Positions 38,134-49,251 of a DNA stretch of 64,000 bases are shown here, piece by piece. This DNA comes from Fusibacter paucivorans (GTDB taxonomy: Bacteria > Bacillota > Clostridia > Peptostreptococcales > Acidaminobacteraceae). The position numbers and the translations under genes were made by a program. The stretch is from positions 1-64,000 of the forward strand of contig NZ_JAHBCL010000011.1 of assembly GCF_018390735.1 (NCBI RefSeq), read 5' to 3'. The number at the start of each line of letters is the position of its first letter. Within the stretch, counting starts at the first letter, position 1. A model generated the notes under the pieces. The model had not been told where the DNA came from and did not search any database. It saw only the letters and a list, made by a program, of their open reading frames with translations.

Positions 38134-39297
38134 ATGGAATCCTATGGTGTTGTTTTAGTCAAAAAAGAAAGTGAATACATGTCATTTCAAGCGGATCAAT
38201 TAAAATTGAAACGCCTTTATACTTTATCGGAAGAAGCACTTAGAGATCAGCCGCTTTGCGTTATTATTAGTCCTGTGACGAGCGAAGAGGCGGCACTGGT
38301 TAAAACCATGACAGCAGTTACCTTTTTTGTTTATCTCGGCGTACAGAAGCTAAATGAACCCAGTGAACACATTCGTCATTTTTCATCACTGGAAAATCTT
38401 CAATCACTCATGGTAGATTATGAGGCAGCGTGGCTAGTCTCGCTTAAAACAGCTTATCTGGAAGAAGCGCTCGCCTTTAGTGAAAAAGACGAGGCATTTA
38501 TTCGTGAACAGTATGATTGCCTTAATCAAGCACCTTTAAAACAGACACCTTTAAAGCAGACAAAAAAGAAAAAAAGTCATTGGATAAAGAAACGTTATGA
38601 CAAGCGTTCATCGCCATGTATTGTCGGACTTATCGGCCATCCCCAGACTGCATCAGCATTGGTAAAGGCTTATCAAAAAATGAGTTATGATCATTGTCTG
38701 ATTATAGATGGCGACTTGTTGAAGCCAACGTTAGACGACAGCTTTAATGTTCGACAGATTGAAACATCTTTGAAAACGCAGTTAACGGGACGCGATAACA
38801 CTGCTTTTAATGTCTTGGTAGATGCTCAGCAGAAGGGGTTGGCTGTAGAGCGAATGGTACCGCTTATCGTTCATCGCTATTCAGAGCATTTAGATGTTCT
38901 CTTTGGCAATTACAATCCGCATAATTATGAACATTATAAAATAGAATCCGTCATGGGCATGGTTAGCGATTTAAAACGTCTATACGATGTGATCTTTATC
39001 TGTCTCCCGATGAACTTGTACGACGAACTAACCTTGTCAGTACTGCATGAATGTGAAATGAGTGTATTGATGGCGACATCAAATAGAGCTGATGTTCGTG
39101 TGATACTCAATACACTGGAACTCATTGAAAATCGGCGTGGCTTGCCGACTGGAAAATTCTACTTTTATTTTTTGAAAAGCAATCAAAAACAGCTTTGGCA
39201 TTCAGCCAATGCTGACGTACTGCGCGCTTTGTTTAAAAAGCAGTATTTAAGTTCTAAAAGCGCCGTTTTACGTCAATTACTGAAAGGAAGGCGTTAA
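38134..39297 (+). CDS. TadZ/CpaE-like protein with degenerate P-loop
   Basis: First gene of the Tad-type cluster, 387 residues. The N-terminal third (about 1-125) resembles a receiver-like fold; the middle has a basic linker with a tandem APLKQTPLKQT repeat; the C-terminal half has a ParA/MinD-like layout: GLIGHPQTASALVKA where the deviant Walker A would be, LIIDGDLLKP in place of Walker A', and YDVIFICLPMN as Walker B. The glycine-lysine P-loop is lost, so ATP hydrolysis is unlikely. TadZ proteins place the pilus machine at the cell pole, and degenerate ones are known. Identity rests on position before the TadA ATPase and fold pattern. Confidence 0.7.
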   Translation: MESYGVVLVKKESEYMSFQADQLKLKRLYTLSEEALRDQPLCVIISPVTSEEAALVKTMTAVTFFVYLGVQKLNEPSEHIRHFSSLENLQSLMVDYEAAWLVSLKTAYLEEALAFSEKDEAFIREQYDCLNQAPLKQTPLKQTKKKKSHWIKKRYDKRSSPCIVGLIGHPQTASALVKAYQKMSYDHCLIIDGDLLKPTLDDSFNVRQIETSLKTQLTGRDNTAFNVLVDAQQKGLAVERMVPLIVHRYSEHLDVLFGNYNPHNYEHYKIESVMGMVSDLKRLYDVIFICLPMNLYDELTLSVLHECEMSVLMATSNRADVRVILNTLELIENRRGLPTGKFYFYFLKSNQKQLWHSANADVLRALFKKQYLSSKSAVLRQLLKGRR

Positions 39298-39299
39298 CA

Positions 39300-40460
39300 A
39301 TGGGGTCCGTTAATTCGCTCTCAATGCCGCAGCATGCGTATCAAAACAGAAAAAATCACTCGGATCGAACGAAGATGATTGTTGAACTGCAGGATGAAGT
39401 TGTCTTAAAATTTTCGAATCTCATCGCTGACGTAGAACTAGGGAATGTCCCAGCGGATATTCTCAAAAATGAAATTAGTAAAATGGTTGATCAGAAAAAG
39501 GGACTTTTTAATACGGATGAAGCAAAGCGGGATTTGTTTAACAGATTATTTGGATATGGTATTTTACAGTACCTCATTGAAGATTCTTCGATTTCCGACA
39601 TTGATGTTTTGAGATATGATTACGTGATGATTAAGCGAAACGGTCAGTGGGAAGTGACAGACTGCAACTTTGGATCTGAATCAGCTTTAGAGAGCTATTG
39701 TAAACTCGTGGTTATCCGTAACGGCGGTGTGCTCAATGATGCTGACAGCCATTGCAGAATCAGTGATCATAAGAACAAGCTGCGAATCAATGCAGCTATC
39801 ACGCCTCGAAATGTCAATGGGTCCACGTTAAACATAAGAAAACACAATCACAGTATCCGAACGCTGGATAAACTGCGAGATATGGGGATGATGGATGATA
39901 CCGTTTTCAGTGAACTGAAAGCGATCAATGCAGCAGGTGCCAATATTTTTATTTGCGGCAAAGGCGCAGCAGGCAAAACGACATTGCTGCGTGCGATGAT
40001 AGAAGAGGTGGATAACTTGGAGCGCGTGTTGATATGTGAGTCGGATGTGGAACTTTATCCACAGAAACCCAACATTATTTCACAGACGATCAAGAAAGAC
40101 TATTTGGGTGGTATCTCGAGAAAATTGAGTGATCTTATTTTAGATGGTTTGACCATGGGACTTGATACATACTGTATTGGCGAGATCATTGGGTCGGAAG
40201 CTTGGGATTTAATTCAAGCAGGACATACAGACCATCGGATCATGACGACAGTCCACGCCACATCTCCAAATGATTTGTTTTACAGATTATTGGCCATGAT
40301 CGAACCAAGAACGCGATTGTCAGAAAGCGTATTAATGAAAATGCTCTGTCAGAGTATGGATGTCATTGTTTATTTGAAGGCTTTCAAGGTGCAGGAAGTT
40401 GTTCGCGTTAAAGGTTATGATGAAGAGATATCACAGCCTGTATTGGAGCAAATCATATGA
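39300..40460 (+). CDS. tadA: Tad pilus secretion ATPase TadA/CpaF
   Basis: Hexameric type II/IV secretion ATPase that powers pilus assembly; not the tRNA deaminase of the same symbol. The P-loop is GKGAAGKTT with Lys226. The Walker B/His-box region reads GEIIGSEAWDLIQAGHTDHRIMTTVHATSPND. The N-terminal domain (about 1-140) includes YGILQYLIEDSSISDIDVLRYD. The family norm is GEVRG; GEIIG here is a mild change. ATG 39300 follows GGAAGG. It overlaps the next gene by 4 bp (ATGA). Confidence 0.9.
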   Translation: MGSVNSLSMPQHAYQNRKNHSDRTKMIVELQDEVVLKFSNLIADVELGNVPADILKNEISKMVDQKKGLFNTDEAKRDLFNRLFGYGILQYLIEDSSISDIDVLRYDYVMIKRNGQWEVTDCNFGSESALESYCKLVVIRNGGVLNDADSHCRISDHKNKLRINAAITPRNVNGSTLNIRKHNHSIRTLDKLRDMGMMDDTVFSELKAINAAGANIFICGKGAAGKTTLLRAMIEEVDNLERVLICESDVELYPQKPNIISQTIKKDYLGGISRKLSDLILDGLTMGLDTYCIGEIIGSEAWDLIQAGHTDHRIMTTVHATSPNDLFYRLLAMIEPRTRLSESVLMKMLCQSMDVIVYLKAFKVQEVVRVKGYDEEISQPVLEQII

Positions 40461-41362
40461 TGATAGTCAATAGTTTGCTGTTTGTTGCCAATGCGCTTTG
40501 GCTTATTGCAGTGGGATGGATTGTGGTGGATCTGGGCGATGAAAAAGTACAATACGATTATCATCTGCAGTATCACTCGATCAAATGGCATCAAAAATAC
40601 ATCCATAAGTTAATTGAGGGACTTCAACTTGAAATACTCTTTGGCACGAAAGCAGCCTATGCTATTCAAGAAGGTATCGGCTATCTGTACGCTGCACTCT
40701 TGGCACTTGTTTTAGCGCTCTTGGCGAGTTGGCATGCACCGCTGTTCACAAGTGGGATTGCACTTGCCGCTTGGCTGATATTGCCTGTCATCATTATCGA
40801 GTTTTTAATTCAAAAGGTATCAGATGGTGTTGATCAATCCTTACTCGGGCTGTTGCAGTCTATACACGCTGGGCTCTTGCAGACAGGTGATATTATTTCA
40901 GCATTGAAATATGCGGAAACACTGGTTAAAGACCGTTATCTGATACGTTTGCTGAATAGATTTAATTACAGTATTCAAAAGGGATTGAGTCCGGAGATTG
41001 CCTTTGAGCAACTAAGACAAGGGGCACATCACGATTATTTTGCCTATGTTATTTTGAATATCGAACAGGTTTATCAGCGGCGCGGCGATGTGATTAGCAT
41101 TATACAAGCACTTCAGGTGGAACACACGGCTATCCAAATCGAACTGAATAAGCGCCAAATTGAACTTAAGCGTGAAAAAATGATGGTAACGATCTGTATG
41201 TGCGTATTTTTGGGGGTGATTATTGAAGTGATACGGGAAGAAAGCTATATATGGCTATTTTATCATCAGCATACATTAGCGGGCTATGTCTTTGCGGTCA
41301 CCGTTTTTGCAGTGATTTTAACACTCTTTGTGCTGATAAAGGGTGACCAGTTAAAGTACTGA
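40457..41362 (+). CDS. tadB: Tad pilus membrane platform protein TadB-like
   Basis: 301 residues with an N-terminal membrane segment (about 4-24), a pair near 75-115, and two C-terminal ones (about 245-262 and 272-292), separated by a cytoplasmic T2SS-F-type helical domain (about 130-230: LLGLLQSIHAGLLQTGDIISALKYAE). This is the TadB layout. It starts within the TadA stop codon. With TadC it forms the inner-membrane platform on which the ATPase acts. Confidence 0.82.
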   Translation: MMIVNSLLFVANALWLIAVGWIVVDLGDEKVQYDYHLQYHSIKWHQKYIHKLIEGLQLEILFGTKAAYAIQEGIGYLYAALLALVLALLASWHAPLFTSGIALAAWLILPVIIIEFLIQKVSDGVDQSLLGLLQSIHAGLLQTGDIISALKYAETLVKDRYLIRLLNRFNYSIQKGLSPEIAFEQLRQGAHHDYFAYVILNIEQVYQRRGDVISIIQALQVEHTAIQIELNKRQIELKREKMMVTICMCVFLGVIIEVIREESYIWLFYHQHTLAGYVFAVTVFAVILTLFVLIKGDQLKY

Positions 41363-41381
41363 GAGAAAAAGGGGGCCTGTG

Positions 41382-42113
41382 ATGCTTATACTGGTGAATA
41401 CATTATGTCTGGCTGTCTTTGGGATGTATCTGAAAGACCGCGTTATGATGAAGACAATTCGTTCAGACTTCAGTGAATACCAGTGGTGGCCTTTAGTGCT
41501 CATCGTCATAGACGTCGGTCTTTTTGCGACATTAAACATTGACATCGGCATTGCAGAGACCCTTAAGACGTGGCTGCTGTCGGGGGTTCGCTGGCTTCTC
41601 ATTGGCGGTGCGGTTACATATGCAATACGTCAGCTTTGGTATCGTCGAAATCGACAGCTGGTGGAAACGCGAAACTTTTATAAGATTTTTAAATTTATCT
41701 TTACGCAAATGAATGCCGGTGCAACCAATTATCAAATTTTCAAACTGCTCTACAAAGTGGTGGACGATGCGAAAATGTCGCGACACTTGCTGCGCTTTTC
41801 CATTCTATTGTCACAAAATGCACAGATGCAGGAGGCCATTGCCTATTTGCGGAATGTGTATAAAAACGATGAAGGCAGCATTTTTGTAGGCATACTCGAC
41901 AATATCAGTCAAAATCACTTAACCGCCAATGGCTTGATAAACGTCGATCAAATGCTGTTTCAGAAGTATCTTTCGGGCATTCGAGCGGAGACAAAGCGCA
42001 TTGAGCGCAATTATGTCCTGCTGGTCGTGATGTACACGCTGTTAATGACGATTTTTTTACTGCTCCCCTTGATTTCGAGTATGGCGGAGAGCGCGCAGAA
42101 TATATTTTCCTAG
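41382..42113 (+). CDS. tadC: Tad pilus membrane platform protein TadC-like
   Basis: 243 residues with membrane segments near the N-terminus (about 2-20, 35-80), a cytoplasmic helical domain (about 90-205) and a C-terminal helix (NYVLLVVMYTLLMTIFLLLPLISSM). It is a shorter relative of TadB, as TadC usually is. ATG 41382 is well spaced from GGGGG; GTG 41379 is also in frame. It lies 19 bp after tadB. Confidence 0.75.
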   Translation: MLILVNTLCLAVFGMYLKDRVMMKTIRSDFSEYQWWPLVLIVIDVGLFATLNIDIGIAETLKTWLLSGVRWLLIGGAVTYAIRQLWYRRNRQLVETRNFYKIFKFIFTQMNAGATNYQIFKLLYKVVDDAKMSRHLLRFSILLSQNAQMQEAIAYLRNVYKNDEGSIFVGILDNISQNHLTANGLINVDQMLFQKYLSGIRAETKRIERNYVLLVVMYTLLMTIFLLLPLISSMAESAQNIFS

Positions 42114-42171: not shown

Positions 42172-42423
42172 ATGAATTTAGAACGTATTCAGCGCATCAG
42201 TGTATGGCTTCGCGTCAAAATGGCTGATGAGCGCGGCGAGTATGGTATGGGAACGGTTATCAGTATTGCCATTGGGCTAATTGTCACATCATTTATCATC
42301 TTGCCGGAACTCAGAAATTTCTCAACGACAATTATGGACAAAATGGATACTTGGTGGGCGAACACTGTCGTTAAAGATATTTTTCCAACGACAATTCCAA
42401 CGACAGTTACAACAACTCCCTGA
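42172..42423 (+). CDS. Flp-type pilin candidate
   Basis: 83 residues, preceded by a strong AGGGAGG. A basic N-terminus with ADERGEYGMG is followed by one hydrophobic segment (TVISIAIGLIVTSFIILP, about 28-45) and a hydrophilic tail ending in a threonine/proline-rich stretch (TTIPTTVTTTP). The Gly-Glu-Tyr before the membrane helix recalls the G/xxxxEY site of Flp prepilins, though not in exact register. The size, strong ribosome-binding site and position after tadC suggest it is the major pilin. The Thr-rich tail could be glycosylated. Confidence 0.65.
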   Translation: MNLERIQRISVWLRVKMADERGEYGMGTVISIAIGLIVTSFIILPELRNFSTTIMDKMDTWWANTVVKDIFPTTIPTTVTTTP

Positions 42424-42435
42424 GGTGTTTGAAGC

Positions 42436-42822
42436 ATGACCCTTTCAGATACGATAATTACAGGCGTCGTCATTGTGATCCTGCTCAGTTTCTTTGTGGC
42501 ATTTACAGATTATACGATCCCCGTCATGGCAAAGCTGGATCAAAACAATATTTGCAGGGATTACGCGACGCTTTTAGCAGCAGAAGGCAAACTGAATACG
42601 GCGGAAACGTCGGCATTGACTTCTGAACTGACAGCGCGAGGCTTTGAATCGGTGGTGATTAGCGTGACGGCGCCAGAGGGCTTAAAGTTTAAGGATATCA
42701 TTCACTTTGAAGTGAGTGCCGTTTTTAGAAGTCGTCAGACGACAGGGCTTTTCAGTAGAGAGGAGATTGAAATACCATGCCGATACGAGGCAGATATGAT
42801 CTACCGGAAGTACGTCAATTAA
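42436..42822 (+). CDS. TadE-like minor pilin candidate
   Basis: 128 residues: one N-terminal membrane helix (ITGVVIVILLSFFVAFTDYTI, about 7-27) and an extracytoplasmic alpha/beta domain with two cysteines (Cys38 and one near the C-terminus). This is the form of TadE/TadF pseudopilins. ATG 42436 follows TGAGGTG. It overlaps the next gene by 46 bp. The sequence alone does not prove the family; the context does most of the work. Confidence 0.6.
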   Translation: MTLSDTIITGVVIVILLSFFVAFTDYTIPVMAKLDQNNICRDYATLLAAEGKLNTAETSALTSELTARGFESVVISVTAPEGLKFKDIIHFEVSAVFRSRQTTGLFSREEIEIPCRYEADMIYRKYVN

Positions 42823-43232
42823 AGTGGTGTCGGGGCAGTGGGATGCTTTCTATGCTGGTGGGCATTCAGCTGCTCCTCCTGCTGATGCTGCCGCTCTTTG
42901 TTTTTTCAGCAGAGTATCTGCATCTGCTGCATGTAAAGTCATTACTTGCATCAAAGACGGAAATGGCCAGCTATCAGCTGATCAGCGACTTGGCATTGAC
43001 AGATCTAAGCATGCGGACAACCACAGCGACAAGAGATTACTCGGAGACATTTGACAGTTATTTGTCGGAGTTGCTCTCCGAGGATGAACAGTGGCGATAC
43101 CAAAACATCACGGCAAATGCTGATGGCTATGCGCTCAATGTTTATTTTGAATACCAGTATGACATTCTGCTCATGCATCGTGTCAAAACACTTGTCTGTG
43201 CCCAAACTTATCAAATACCGCAAAACTATTGA
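42777..43232 (+). CDS. TadE/TadF-like minor pilin candidate
   Basis: 151 residues: a basic N-terminus with RGSGMLSM, one hydrophobic segment (LVGIQLLLLLMLPLFVFSAEYL, about 26-47) and an extracytoplasmic domain. RGSG before the membrane helix is like the RGS/RGxA motif at the start of TadE/TadG helices. The start is ATG 42777, 12 nt behind AGGAG and inside the previous gene; ATG 42843 would remove the basic segment. Probably co-translated with the upstream pilin-like gene. Confidence 0.55.
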   Translation: MPIRGRYDLPEVRQLKWCRGSGMLSMLVGIQLLLLLMLPLFVFSAEYLHLLHVKSLLASKTEMASYQLISDLALTDLSMRTTTATRDYSETFDSYLSELLSEDEQWRYQNITANADGYALNVYFEYQYDILLMHRVKTLVCAQTYQIPQNY

Positions 43233-43269: not shown

Positions 43270-43869
43270 ATGACAAAGAAAATTATCGTCGTCATGACAT
43301 TTGCACTGCTGAGTCTCGCAGTCACACAATATCAAATACAGCGTATTAATCACAAGACGCTGCAAACCTATGAAGACGTGTGTGTCTATACAAGAGATAT
43401 TGAATATGGTACGGTACTAAAAGCTTCCGATATTGCCGTGGGTAAAATCAACACGCAGTGGGACAGCGCTGATTATATCAAAGACAGTACCACTGCCGTT
43501 GGGATGCAGCTTAAAACAGATGTCAAAAAAAATGCGATTTTAGCAGCAGGCAATTTATCAGAAGCCAATGAAGCAATGCTCCCTTCTGAAGGGCGTGCAC
43601 TGACGGCAATAAAGCTTTCTTCAGAAACAGCCGTTGGTTGGTCTTTTGAGGCTGGTGATACCATGGTGCTCTATTGGGTTGGAACCGATGCGACAACAGA
43701 ACTAATGGGTGATGTTTTTATTAAGGCAATTATCAGTGAAACAGGCGCGGCAAATGCATCACCTGTCTATGTGATTGTTGAAACAGATGTGCCCATGGTG
43801 GCGAAAATAGTCTCTATTCGCGATAAGGGAAGATTTGAGCTCGTACGCCAATTTGGATTAATAAATTGA
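43270..43869 (+). CDS. CpaB/RcpC-like SAF-domain protein
   Basis: 199 residues with a signal-anchor (KKIIVVMTFALLSLAVTQY) and an SAF domain (VYTRDIEYGTVLKASDIAVGKI, then a VGMQLKTDVKKNAILAAGNL segment), which is the core of CpaB/RcpC. In Gram-negative bacteria CpaB works beside the outer-membrane secretin; here no secretin exists, and the protein may act in the cell wall. It closes the cluster. No prepilin peptidase (TadV/CpaA) is in the window, so it must be encoded elsewhere. Confidence 0.78.
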   Translation: MTKKIIVVMTFALLSLAVTQYQIQRINHKTLQTYEDVCVYTRDIEYGTVLKASDIAVGKINTQWDSADYIKDSTTAVGMQLKTDVKKNAILAAGNLSEANEAMLPSEGRALTAIKLSSETAVGWSFEAGDTMVLYWVGTDATTELMGDVFIKAIISETGAANASPVYVIVETDVPMVAKIVSIRDKGRFELVRQFGLIN

Positions 43870-43894
43870 ATATTCAAATGCATTTGTTTATAAT
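43866..43894 (+). promoter_or_regulatory. Promoter before the pseudo-kinase gene
   Basis: TTGAAT at 43866-43871, a 17-bp spacer and a perfect TATAAT at 43889-43894. The -35 overlaps the stop codon of the CpaB-like gene. It suggests that the sensor gene is transcribed on its own as well as by read-through. Confidence 0.65.
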
Positions 43895-43947: not shown

Positions 43948-45504
43948 ATGGATGCTTACGGCAGTCTTTCAAGAGAATCGCTGATTCACGAAATTAGACA
44001 ATTGAATAAGACCATCGAAACGCTTAAGTTTAAAATGGATTCAGAAGAAGTTAACCTGCTGGATCTGGTCAAGTTTCCGATTATTCACATCAGCAGTGAA
44101 TATGATATCCTATGGGCTAATCATTATGCAACGGAACAATACGATAGGCTTTATCATAAAAAGTGCTATCAGGCGCTTTATGGTTTTAATGATATTTGTT
44201 CGAACTGTCCAATGAAAGAAGTGCTTTCTTATAAGGTTACGATGAACATTGTCGTCGTTGATAAACACGCCGATAATTGGCATAATGCACTGATGCCAGT
44301 TGATGAAGGCGATGTTCAAGGGAGTATTTTAGAATTTCAACAGCGAAAAGATGAACGCCTGCAAGTAGAAGAAGCATTTAAGGATGCTATCGCACGCCTG
44401 CGTCATGAAAATCAGGAACTTCGCCGTAAACTTCAGATAAAGAATGATTTCATTAAGATTTTTTCAACGAAGCTCATGACGCCAATCAAGGCGATTAGGG
44501 GTATTCATACCAGTTTAGAAAATACATATCTATCACAGATTCAGTCTGAATACTTAACCGTTCTCGCGAAAAACAGCAGGTTGATTCACGATATTTTTAA
44601 CCGCGCGTTGATGCATGCGGATATGGAAGAGAGCGTTTTGCTCAATCCAAAACAGGAATTTGATCTCGTCGGCGTTTTGACGGCGCTTGAAACGATGTCA
44701 AAGGCACAGTTTGAAGTCGTACTGCACTATGATGATGCCATGCCGAAAATCGTACTTGGCGATGAAACGAATTTTACGCTGGCACTTTATCTGTTGCTTG
44801 AGACGGCGGTTTCAATTAGTGCGCATAAACGCATTTTCCTCAATGCGACAAGTATTTCAGAAACCATTAAAAATGTCAGTGTTAAATTGACAATTACAGA
44901 TCGGGCCGACAATCGTCAAGCGGCTCTTAAGAACTTTACAGACACGGTTTATGAGCAAGATGATATTTATCGAAGCTTAGAAAGTTATATCTCCTCTGTT
45001 GGGATTCAAGTCGGCAAGAAAATTATTGAGGCATTAGACGGAACACTGATTATTTCAACGACAGAGGGCAAGGGCATTCATATGACCCTTTTTATTAATT
45101 TTGAAAAAGTCATGCCGCGAAAACCTATTCAAATCGCCGTAACGACATCTGAGAAGGCCGGTATACTCTTTGTTGATGAAGATAGACCCCCAGTTTCGCT
45201 GGAAATGTTTGATCGGTACAATATTTATTTTGCAAAATCGAAAGAACAGGCGGTGGCACTTTTTACAGCACATATGCCGGAGATCACAATGATCAATATC
45301 ATGCTGAACGATGAAGATGGTTTTAGTATTTTTGACGCGATCGAACGCTATCGTCAAGAGGGTCAGTATATTTTGGCGACATCTGTCAAGCTGATTGACA
45401 ACGAACGCGATTTTATGCGCGATTACGGTTTTGACGACTATTATGAAAAACCGCTTCATCAATCGGATCTCAATGACATTTTTAAACTTTACATCAATCG
45501 ATGA
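43948..45504 (+). CDS. Hybrid sensor-kinase-like protein lacking both phospho-acceptors
   Basis: 518 residues, no membrane segments. Order: short coiled coil, PAS-like domain (about 30-130) with a CYQALYGFNDICSNCPM cysteine motif, a second coiled coil, DHp-like helices (about 165-225), a HATPase-like domain (about 240-385), and a C-terminal receiver-like domain (about 395-518). In the H-box (FSTKLMTPI) Thr174 stands where the histidine should be. In the receiver, ILFVDED and Lys501 (EKPL) are kept but the phospho-Asp position is Asn450 (MINIML). The ATP-binding boxes are poorly conserved too. It is probably a protein-protein signalling scaffold. ATG 43948 follows GAGGTG. Confidence 0.8.
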   Translation: MDAYGSLSRESLIHEIRQLNKTIETLKFKMDSEEVNLLDLVKFPIIHISSEYDILWANHYATEQYDRLYHKKCYQALYGFNDICSNCPMKEVLSYKVTMNIVVVDKHADNWHNALMPVDEGDVQGSILEFQQRKDERLQVEEAFKDAIARLRHENQELRRKLQIKNDFIKIFSTKLMTPIKAIRGIHTSLENTYLSQIQSEYLTVLAKNSRLIHDIFNRALMHADMEESVLLNPKQEFDLVGVLTALETMSKAQFEVVLHYDDAMPKIVLGDETNFTLALYLLLETAVSISAHKRIFLNATSISETIKNVSVKLTITDRADNRQAALKNFTDTVYEQDDIYRSLESYISSVGIQVGKKIIEALDGTLIISTTEGKGIHMTLFINFEKVMPRKPIQIAVTTSEKAGILFVDEDRPPVSLEMFDRYNIYFAKSKEQAVALFTAHMPEITMINIMLNDEDGFSIFDAIERYRQEGQYILATSVKLIDNERDFMRDYGFDDYYEKPLHQSDLNDIFKLYINR

Positions 45505-45510
45505 TTAATC

Positions 45511-45541
45511 AACCCTCAAATAATATGAAGAGGGTTTTTTT
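45511..45541 (+). terminator. Terminator after the pseudo-kinase gene
   Basis: A 7-bp stem AACCCTC/GAGGGTT (45511-45517, 45530-45536) followed by a T-run. A TATAAT at 45548-45553 just after it may start transcription of the next gene. Confidence 0.8.
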
Positions 45542-45600
45542 ATATGGTATAATCGTTAATGAGATCCAATAAAATCAATAAAGATAAGCGGATGGTGGAC

Positions 45601-46752
45601 ATGAATTATAAATTAGTGGCAACAACTGTATTTGGCTTAGAAGCCATTGCGGCATATGAGATAAAAGCACTTGGATTCGAGAACGTCGCAGTGGAGAATG
45701 GCAGGGTTTTCTTTGAAGGCACTGAAGAGGGCATTGTGAAGGCTAATCTATGGCTGAGATGTGTTGAACGCGTTTTCGTCTGTGTCGGCAGTTTTAAAGC
45801 GACGAGTTTTGAAGCGCTTTTTGATGGTGTAAATGCTTTACCTTGGGAGCTTTATATCCCTGAAAAAGCAACTTTTCCCGTCAATGCAAAATCGGTTAAG
45901 TCAAAACTCTTCAGCCTTTCAGATATTCAAAAAATTTCTAAGAAGGCGATTGTAAAGCGACTGAGCAGCTTATATGGGGTCAGCTGGTTTGAAGAAACTG
46001 GCGAGACTTATGCACTGACGATTGCGCTGCTCAACGACAATGTTACGGTTATGATTGACACATCAGGTGAAGGGCTTCATAGGCGCGGTTATCGTGAACG
46101 CGGCAATGATGCCCCGATGAAAGAGACCTTGGCAGCAGGACTGTTACAGGTTGCCCGGTGGCAGCCGAAGATCCCGTTAATTGATCCCATGTGCGGTTCC
46201 GGTACCATTGTGATTGAAGCGGCGATGATTGCAAAAAATATTGCCCCGGGTTTAAACAGAAATTTTGCATCAGAAGCATGGCCTAAAATTGGCAAGGAAC
46301 TGTGGAAAGCTGAACGCATGAAGGCATACAGTGCGATTCGTCAAGAAGTTGATGTCAGTTTATATGGCTATGATATTGATTCAAAGAGTATTGCCATTGC
46401 CAGAGAAAATGCTGAGCTCGCAGGTGTTGACGATATTGTGTCTTTTTCTGTAAGAGCTGTTCAGTCCTTTGAAACCGAAGCGCGTTATGGTTATGTTTTA
46501 TGCAATCCGCCATATGGAGAACGCTTGAGTGAAGCCAAGGCAGTTGAAAAGCTTTATGCCGATATGGGCAAAGTCTTTAAACGTTTCCCAACGTGGTCAA
46601 AATACATTATTACTGCCTATGAAAACTTTGAAACGGCTTATGGCATGAAAGCGAACAAGAACAGAAAGCTGTACAATGGTCGAATCAAGACGTACTTTTA
46701 TCAATTTTATGGTGAAAAACCGCCTAAAAACGGACGGAGCAAACCCGTATGA
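45601..46752 (+). CDS. THUMP-domain class I RNA methyltransferase (RlmL/YpsC-like)
   Basis: 383 residues. The N-terminal THUMP domain (about 1-155) precedes a Rossmann methyltransferase with motif I DPMCGSGTIVIEAAM and catalytic NPPYGER (motif IV), typical of N2-guanine or N6-adenine RNA methyltransferases. It corresponds to the N-terminal half of E. coli RlmL, which makes m2G2445 in 23S rRNA; the C-terminal RlmK half is absent, as usual in Firmicutes. The frame is open from 45559, but that codon is too close to the TATAAT; ATG 45601 with GGATGGTGG is chosen. It overlaps the next gene by 4 bp. Confidence 0.88.
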   Translation: MNYKLVATTVFGLEAIAAYEIKALGFENVAVENGRVFFEGTEEGIVKANLWLRCVERVFVCVGSFKATSFEALFDGVNALPWELYIPEKATFPVNAKSVKSKLFSLSDIQKISKKAIVKRLSSLYGVSWFEETGETYALTIALLNDNVTVMIDTSGEGLHRRGYRERGNDAPMKETLAAGLLQVARWQPKIPLIDPMCGSGTIVIEAAMIAKNIAPGLNRNFASEAWPKIGKELWKAERMKAYSAIRQEVDVSLYGYDIDSKSIAIARENAELAGVDDIVSFSVRAVQSFETEARYGYVLCNPPYGERLSEAKAVEKLYADMGKVFKRFPTWSKYIITAYENFETAYGMKANKNRKLYNGRIKTYFYQFYGEKPPKNGRSKPV

Positions 46753-48593: not shown

Positions 48594-48654
48594 GGTATAA
48601 AAGTCAGGGTATGATGTTGTTGTCAGTCATGAGAGAGAGTATGAGGTGAATAGA

Positions 48655-49251
48655 ATGGAAATTAAAATTGATGCACGTGGACTCGCCTGTCCAAAACCTG
48701 TTATTGAAACAAAAAAAGCACTGGACCAAATTCCGGAGGGCAATATTATTACGCTCGTCGACAATGCAATTGCAAGAGATAATGTTTCCAAGCTCGCAAA
48801 AAGCATGCAGCTTCACTTCACCGTTGAAGAAGCTGACGGCAATTTTCAAATCAGTATTTTTAAGGGCGAATATGTCGGCCTTGGTGATGAGGGGATTGAA
48901 AATCGCCCGAACTTATCAAATCTCGTCATGCTTGTTGCAAGCGATGTGATGGGCGAAGGTGAGCGTGAGCTCGGTGAAATTCTAATGAAGGGCTATTTTT
49001 ATGCACTTGCAGAATATGAACCTTACCCAAAAGCTGTTATTTTTATGAATTCAGGTGTTAAGCTGGCGATAGAAGGATCTCCTGTGCTTGAACATGTCCG
49101 CAGACTTCAAGAATATGGAACCGAAGTGATGAGCTGCGGCACCTGTCTTGACTATTACGGCATCAAAACGCTATTGGCAGTAGGTGAAGTGAGCAACATG
49201 TATACGATTGTCGAATATATTTCAGAAGCCAACAATACGATTAAGCTATAA
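48655..49251 (+). CDS. yedF: YedF-type protein (TusA-like plus DsrE-like domains)
   Basis: 198 residues. The N-terminal SirA/TusA domain has the DARGLACPKPVIETKKAL motif with the sulfur-carrying Cys at residue 12, and the C-terminal domain (about 85-198) is DsrE-like with SCGTCLDYYG, where a second redox-active Cys pair lies. The family is annotated as sulfurtransferase-like selenium metabolism protein YedF; selD is not in the window. ATG 48655 is 6 nt behind TGAGGTG; the frame is open from GTG 48646, which lies in that site. Confidence 0.88.
   Translation: MEIKIDARGLACPKPVIETKKALDQIPEGNIITLVDNAIARDNVSKLAKSMQLHFTVEEADGNFQISIFKGEYVGLGDEGIENRPNLSNLVMLVASDVMGEGERELGEILMKGYFYALAEYEPYPKAVIFMNSGVKLAIEGSPVLEHVRRLQEYGTEVMSCGTCLDYYGIKTLLAVGEVSNMYTIVEYISEANNTIKL

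Follow-up and report, generated by a model that had tools for sequence, protein, structure and literature searches.

A catalytically degenerate hybrid histidine kinase at the Tad pilus locus of Fusibacter paucivorans: a candidate phosphorylation-independent regulator

Introduction

Pseudo-histidine kinases, of which DivL is an example, and pseudo-receivers are both established kinds of protein, and RetS reportedly acts through contact with another kinase. Several of these systems are relevant to the locus described here. DivL consists of a PAS domain and a histidine kinase core in which the phospho-His is replaced, and it works without kinase activity (PMC4211667); polar targeting of FrzS, a protein of type IV pilus motility, depends on the output face of its pseudo-receiver and not on phosphorylation (PMC1974792). 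The receiver of CpaE/TadZ is atypical as well and is likely responsible for contacts between CpaE molecules (PMC13170226). Among receivers that lack the aspartate, Asn is the second commonest replacement (PMC4395418), and the on/off switching of pseudo-receivers was termed a mystery in 2025 (PMC12632262).

The window analyzed here is a stretch of 64,000 nucleotides from Fusibacter paucivorans (contig NZ_JAHBCL010000011.1, positions 1 to 64,000), in which a Tad pilus cluster is followed by a gene resembling a hybrid histidine kinase without its catalytic residues. Among the titles and abstract openings of the best matches in the open-access literature, we found neither a pseudo-histidine kinase with a pseudo-receiver, lacking ATP-site motifs and located beside tad genes across genera, nor such a regulator for the Tad pili of Clostridiales-type bacteria. 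We propose, with about even confidence, that the protein descends from an ordinary hybrid histidine kinase and now serves the Tad pilus machine as a dedicated regulator that does not depend on phosphorylation.

The Protein and Its Catalytic Residues

The gene is an open reading frame for 518 residues at 43948-45504 on the forward strand, with an ATG start at 43948, a Shine-Dalgarno-like GAGGTG just 5' of it and a stop codon ending at 45504. It is present in 23 of 41 genomes of the family, as a 14-member clade and nine more distant copies; of the 18 genomes without it, seven were judged from a protein search only, and in 11 the locus itself was examined (in G015 without the junction). The clade spans five genera (g1, g17, g19, g9 and g20) with tree support of 100/100, and Met1 is aligned across all 13 full-length members.

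Open reading frame, Pfam and alignment together identify a pseudo-hybrid histidine kinase with the domain order PAS, DHp, CA, receiver. Pfam places the receiver of the window protein slightly below the cut-off and HisKA below threshold; at an E value of 0.1, the full-length clade members match Response_reg in 13 of 13 cases, HisKA in 9 and HATPase_c in 5. In NCBIfam, hybrid kinase models come out on top, ArcB leading (2e-20, residues 145-516), all with scores far below the model cut-offs. Judged by homology of its DHp, CA and receiver domains, the protein is a member of the histidine kinase superfamily by descent. An AlphaFold2 model of the window protein as a single sequence reached a mean pLDDT of 33.5, too poor for a fold search.

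An earlier, sequence-only reading had placed a Cys motif in a PAS domain. The cysteines hold up, in that Cys73, Cys84 and Cys87 (CY-x9-CxxC, 44164-44208) are invariant in the alignment of all 13 full-length members, but the surrounding domain (approximately residues 31-135, 44038-44352) is only weakly PAS-like: no Pfam PAS model matches the window protein, and at most 3 of 13 clade members match one. The DNA pattern of the Cys motif has 24 matches in the same genome, against 16 in a reversed control; in the one match followed up besides the window's own, in contig C51, the frame is interrupted by stops. The same pattern brought up a tandem repeat of the 7-mer TGCTATG at G000:C15:79971-80036 (L226-L229).

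Box names and CheY-equivalent positions follow general usage and were transferred by alignment to canonical relatives. In the degenerate DHp/HisKA domain (44437-44640), Thr174 (44467-44469) occupies the phospho-His site; in the pseudo-receiver (45160-45495), Asn450 (45295-45297) occupies the phospho-Asp site and Lys501 (45448-45450) is retained. All three assignments had been made in the earlier reading and are confirmed. The acidic pair, which had also been said to stay, does so in the window protein as Asp410 and Glu411, but position 411 is non-acidic in 12 of 12 other full-length orthologues, and within the clade an acidic residue there is confined to the genus of the window. Beyond that earlier reading, the ATP site is degraded as well: the CA/ATPase domain (44641-45123) lacks the N-box Asn and DxGxG, each of which is found in none of the 13 full-length members. 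The H-box His, the ATP-site motifs and the receiver Asp by which a canonical hybrid kinase is recognized are thus all absent from the window protein, and on the aligned residues the ATP-site motifs, the phospho-donor and the phospho-acceptor are missing together.

These losses are not peculiar to one sequence. Orthologues keeping both His and Asp had been named beforehand as evidence against a double pseudo-kinase and pseudo-receiver. Across the 14 clade members the His site holds Thr in 2, Arg in 4 and Lys in 8, with His in none; the receiver site holds Asn in 10, His in 1 and Asp in 3, all of genus g17. The reading is supported throughout for the kinase half, and for the receiver half outside that genus. 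Sequencing error is very unlikely, because the same Thr and Asn recur in G001, a genome of the same genus whose copy is 98.6% identical over the 352 residues covered. Within its own genome, the window protein gives the weakest of 42 HisKA matches, His being retained in 40 of the 41 others, and its receiver ranks 70th among 72 receiver matches. Another histidine kinase of that genome (G000:C86:139705-139908; L163:85-2184) has Asn at the phospho-His position (LSNELRTSL) and canonical-looking ATP-site motifs.

It may be that the receiver can still be phosphorylated, either because Asn450 is deamidated to Asp or because a different kinase donates the phosphate. Asp410, Ser479, Tyr498 and Lys501 are retained in 13 of 13 full-length clade members, genus g17 retains the Asp in 3 of 3, and PMC4395418 records an Asn-to-Asp reversion for a receiver. 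However, at the second position of the acidic pair 12 of 13 full-length members have a non-acidic residue, the window protein being the exception, and His occupies the Asp site in one member; we consider continued phosphorylation very improbable.

The Tad Locus

All genes of the cluster lie on the forward strand. The first is a TadZ-like gene without the P-loop Lys (38134-39297), an assignment based on position and on weak similarity to a ParA-like tyrosine-autokinase model. It is followed by a TadA/CpaF ATPase gene with an intact Walker A motif (39300-40460, profile match), a TadB-like gene (40457-41362, Pfam T2SSF below cut-off) and a TadC-like gene (41379-42113, by place). A short open reading frame of 83 amino acids without a Pfam match (42172-42423) is presumably Flp-prepilin-like, on a motif judged by eye. 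Two TadE-like open reading frames (42436-43232, by place) and a CpaB/RcpC-like SAF-domain gene (43270-43869, profile matches) complete the series before the pseudokinase gene, and an rlmL-like methyltransferase gene (45559-46752, Pfam) is the downstream anchor. Close to the locus there is also a selenium-metabolism protein, YedF (48646-49251, TIGR03527, 7e-65).

As far as contigs reach, this block is common to the clade in outline, in the order TadZ-like, TadA, TadB, TadC, small pilin- and TadE-like open reading frames, CpaB/SAF, pseudokinase, rlmL and DUF5711. The CpaB/SAF-like gene is directly 5' of the pseudokinase gene, and the rlmL-like gene directly 3', in 13 of 14 clade loci each, the exception in both cases being a contig end. 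The far side of the block is more variable: recR is found upstream in six of the 14 loci (the window, G047, G009, G048, G052 and G020), and other genes are upstream in genus g17 and in G051. A Tad block is also recognizable at the loci of the more distant copies in genera g7, g2, g12 and g14. There, the CpaB-like gene has a SAF match above cut-off in G012 and G014, weak SAF/RcpC matches in G054, G055, G002 and G007, and none in G022.

The gene therefore has a conserved place in the Tad locus, and a shared transcription unit is indicated as well. In the window, an intrinsic terminator with a loop of 12 (45511-45541, forward strand) lies in the gap between the pseudokinase and rlmL-like genes; it was missed by a scan with loops of at most 8 and found when longer loops were allowed. 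Among 20 of the 23 loci (G001, G009 and G020 were left out of the count), 14 have a terminator between the kinase gene and rlmL, against 0.4 expected from shuffles, and two, G054 and G007, have one 5' of the kinase gene. From the terminator before rlmL in 14 of 20 loci, the pseudokinase gene is likely the last of the tad unit, and judging by this arrangement it seems to be part of the tad transcription unit wherever that unit exists. A promoter-like TTGAAT-17-TATAAT just 5' of the gene (43866-43894, forward strand) is a 10/12 consensus match only, and 38 such sites were found in the region against 29.8 expected.

Across genomes, gene and cluster tend to go together. With the cluster scored as present on a TadA match of about 1e-77 or better, and on a hand-counted table uncorrected for relatedness, the gene is found in 20 of 25 genomes with the cluster and in 3 of 16 without it, one of the three being a broken contig (Fisher p 0.0002). 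By genus, the corresponding figures are 9 of 13 and 1 of 8 (Fisher p 0.024). Removal of two doubtful genomes, G001, whose contig ends within the gene, and G015, which has a contig break, gives p 0.00003 by genome, and p becomes 0.020 by genus when g15 is dropped.

The co-occurrence is not strict, and there are exceptions in both directions. In G008 and G053 (genus g8) there is no Tad cluster, and the kinase gene is located between recR and rlmL, 2-11 bp from the latter and without a terminator. In G013, G018, G056 and G023 there is a Tad cluster without the kinase gene; an M17 peptidase gene immediately precedes rlmL in G013, and a transporter gene is second before it in G018. These cases speak for a model in which the protein is a phosphorylation-independent regulator of something other than the pilus, kept at this spot by vertical inheritance. 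The promoter-like site in the window and the 5' terminators of G054 and G007 speak for such a model as well. However, among the 18 loci with a Tad context, a terminator lies toward rlmL in 14 and toward the pilus genes in two, and both copies without a Tad cluster belong to the distant, less degraded group. We regard this alternative as somewhat unlikely. The link to the pilus machine, which the earlier reading had offered as a possibility, is strengthened by operon position and synteny, but falls short of proof in view of the two genomes with only the gene and the four with only the cluster.

The TadZ-like protein has a peculiarity of its own. In none of the 21 loci compared does the position that aligns with the P-loop lysine hold a lysine, as judged by eye; a GK[ST] motif occurs elsewhere in 3 of the 21, and in G015 there is a full Walker-A-like motif in the linker. 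It is possible, going by this position, that a pseudo-ATPase is encoded in the same cluster as the pseudokinase.

Stepwise Loss of Catalysis at One Spot

No clade member beyond the 14 turned up when 247 genomes sampled from the order were searched with a profile, and within that sample the pseudokinase is restricted to the family. The 14 members score at 2.3e-129 or better; the next matches are the same-place proteins of G014 (8e-61) and G022 (5e-52), and matches from 3e-45 onward are mostly at other loci. The nine distant kinases at the corresponding place belong to genera g7, g2, g8, g12 and g14. Since their monophyly lacks tree support (22/0), their orthology rests on position.

All nine retain the receiver Asp, and four retain the His. 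The G014 protein is canonical in its H-box, N-box, G1, G2 and receiver and has no PAS domain. The copies of G008 and G053 retain the His and the ATP-site motifs and have lost the acidic pair of the receiver; that of G012, also without PAS, retains the His and the receiver and has a degraded CA domain. In G022 and G002, the ATP site and receiver are retained and Glu replaces the His. The three g7 copies have lost both the His and the ATP-site motifs and retain the receiver. In G014, the gap between the canonical kinase gene and rlmL (L122:7845-8120) contains 3.2 tandem copies of an 86-base unit with 92% matches.

That one distant kinase at the same spot is fully canonical indicates that catalysis was probably lost stepwise in place. 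The tree requires at least three changes in His state and two in Asp state, the distant branches being unresolved, and the simplest account of the aligned sequences is probably a stepwise, partly parallel loss of catalysis at a single chromosomal spot. At one syntenic position, members of one family have an intact hybrid kinase, one that is partly degraded, or a dead one that is nevertheless strongly conserved. With such a series, a stepwise switch from phosphotransfer to contact becomes testable by comparison.

Selection and Conservation

Loss of catalytic residues might also be expected of a decaying pseudogene. Between the window and G001, however, dN is 0.007 and dS 0.447 (dN/dS 0.015), the frame is open in all 13 full-length copies, and there are invariant residues with no catalytic role; decay was rejected on these grounds and is almost certainly wrong. 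Six further computable pairs, two of them from the distant group, give dN/dS values of 0.033-0.147; ten pairs were tried in all, of which three were saturated. On these substitution ratios, strong purifying selection acts on the gene, and neutral decay can be excluded.

In a working kinase, the catalytic boxes would be expected to be the best conserved parts. Here, among 10 non-redundant clade members of the 14 (the partial G001 being left out), mean pairwise identity is 0.79 for residues 1-20 (43948-44007), an N-terminal signature presumed to be helical, and 0.51 for residues 70-92 around the cysteines. It falls to 0.33 in DHp and 0.30 in the CA domain (0.28-0.33 over the kinase core) and rises to 0.54 in the receiver, where it is 0.73 for residues 474-503 and highest, at 0.77, for residues 481-500. 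The H-box (0.40) and N-box (0.41) lack their key residues, yet are somewhat above their own domains. Invariant residues are concentrated in the N-terminal stretch, the Cys patch and the receiver. By these alignments, the ends of the protein lead in conservation within the clade and the core drifts. A contact-based output through the receiver face is proposed chiefly on the strength of this pattern of conserved ends and drifting core; residues 481-502 (45388-45453) of that face are presumed, from the usual secondary structure of receivers, to be beta4-alpha4-beta5.

Two other models relate to the same pattern. In the first, the protein would act in the manner of DivL or RetS, its dead core either forming a pair with a second kinase or recognizing a response regulator in its phosphorylated state. 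Of the solved sequences nearest to the clade profile, the histidine kinase 7z8n comes first and RetS (6dk8, 6dk7) is among those that follow, Pro179 of DHp is invariant (13 of 13), and DivL offers the precedent of a pseudo-histidine kinase that senses DivK~P (PMC4211667). However, DivL keeps all histidine kinase boxes but the His, with a conserved patch around it, whereas here the H-box and core are well below the receiver in identity. No other kinase or response regulator was recognized by Pfam among nine neighboring proteins either, and we consider this model unlikely. In the second, the pseudo-receiver is a ligand sensor, perhaps for a cyclic dinucleotide at its alpha4-beta5-alpha5 face. 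Conservation of the receiver peaks at residues 481-500, and the pseudo-receiver of ShkA binds c-di-GMP at that face (PMC12632262); however, ligand binding in ShkA frees an active kinase, which is absent here, and a ShkA-like role is improbable.

Proposed Function

The preferred reading remains that of a phosphorylation-independent regulator of the Tad machine, and the evidence points to signaling through direct contact with partners in place of phosphotransfer. Signaling by contact, as the earlier reading had supposed, fits the conservation pattern in so far as the ends and the receiver face are kept and the core drifts. In this mechanism, an ordinary hybrid histidine kinase would have been the ancestor, with its catalytic residues subsequently lost. 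The N-terminal stretch and PAS-like domain would be the input, sensing a cytoplasmic signal, the dead DHp/CA core would serve as dimer and linker, and the pseudo-receiver would bind a partner through its alpha4-beta5-alpha5 face.

That partner would most likely belong to the cytoplasmic part of the Tad machine; the TadZ-like protein and the TadA ATPase are attractive candidates because CpaE/TadZ already carries an atypical receiver. When profiles of the pseudokinase and the TadZ-like protein were compared, no receiver similarity was detected, and a search of solved structures with the TadZ-like profile returned no chain labeled TadZ. The conserved receiver face could also serve a different partner. 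The zinc-binding PAS domain of WalK (PMC6624279) offers a loose analogy by which the cysteines could plausibly have a sensing role; their invariance only makes redox or metal sensing worth a test.

A broader and more speculative possibility, which we think doubtful, is that the hub controlling this Tad system in the cytoplasm consists largely of retired enzymes: a kinase without its His and ATP-site motifs, a receiver without its Asp and a TadZ-like protein without its P-loop lysine. Such a hub might be a binding-only switch in which the PAS cysteines set the output face and gate pilus assembly, with the conversion of kinase to scaffold recorded lineage by lineage at one spot. In any of its pilus-related forms, the protein is a candidate regulator for the Tad pili of Clostridiales-type bacteria.

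Comparison with Known Systems

RetS resembles the clade in its kinase core, as its place among the nearest solved sequences shows. It is said to keep its phospho-His and to be membrane-bound, whereas the window protein has Thr174 at that position. DivL shares the combination of a PAS domain and a histidine kinase core with the phospho-His replaced, but has Tyr at the His site with the other boxes kept, whereas Thr, Arg or Lys is found here and the boxes are lost; the DivL architecture ends at the CA domain, and here a well-conserved receiver follows (PMC4211667).

The resemblance to pseudo-receivers such as FrzS, RitR, ShkA and others is one of receiver homology with the phospho-Asp replaced, by Asn in the window protein. 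FrzS provides the further analogy of a pilus-linked receiver that acts without phosphorylation, which for the window protein is proposed (PMC1974792). The pseudo-receiver described here differs in its setting, as the C-terminal part of a dead hybrid kinase encoded within a Tad operon, and in that its switch Ser, Tyr and Lys are invariant. TadZ/CpaE, finally, is a cytoplasmic Tad component with an atypical receiver (PMC13170226), but it is a protein of ATPase fold, and the same cluster contains a separate TadZ-like gene.
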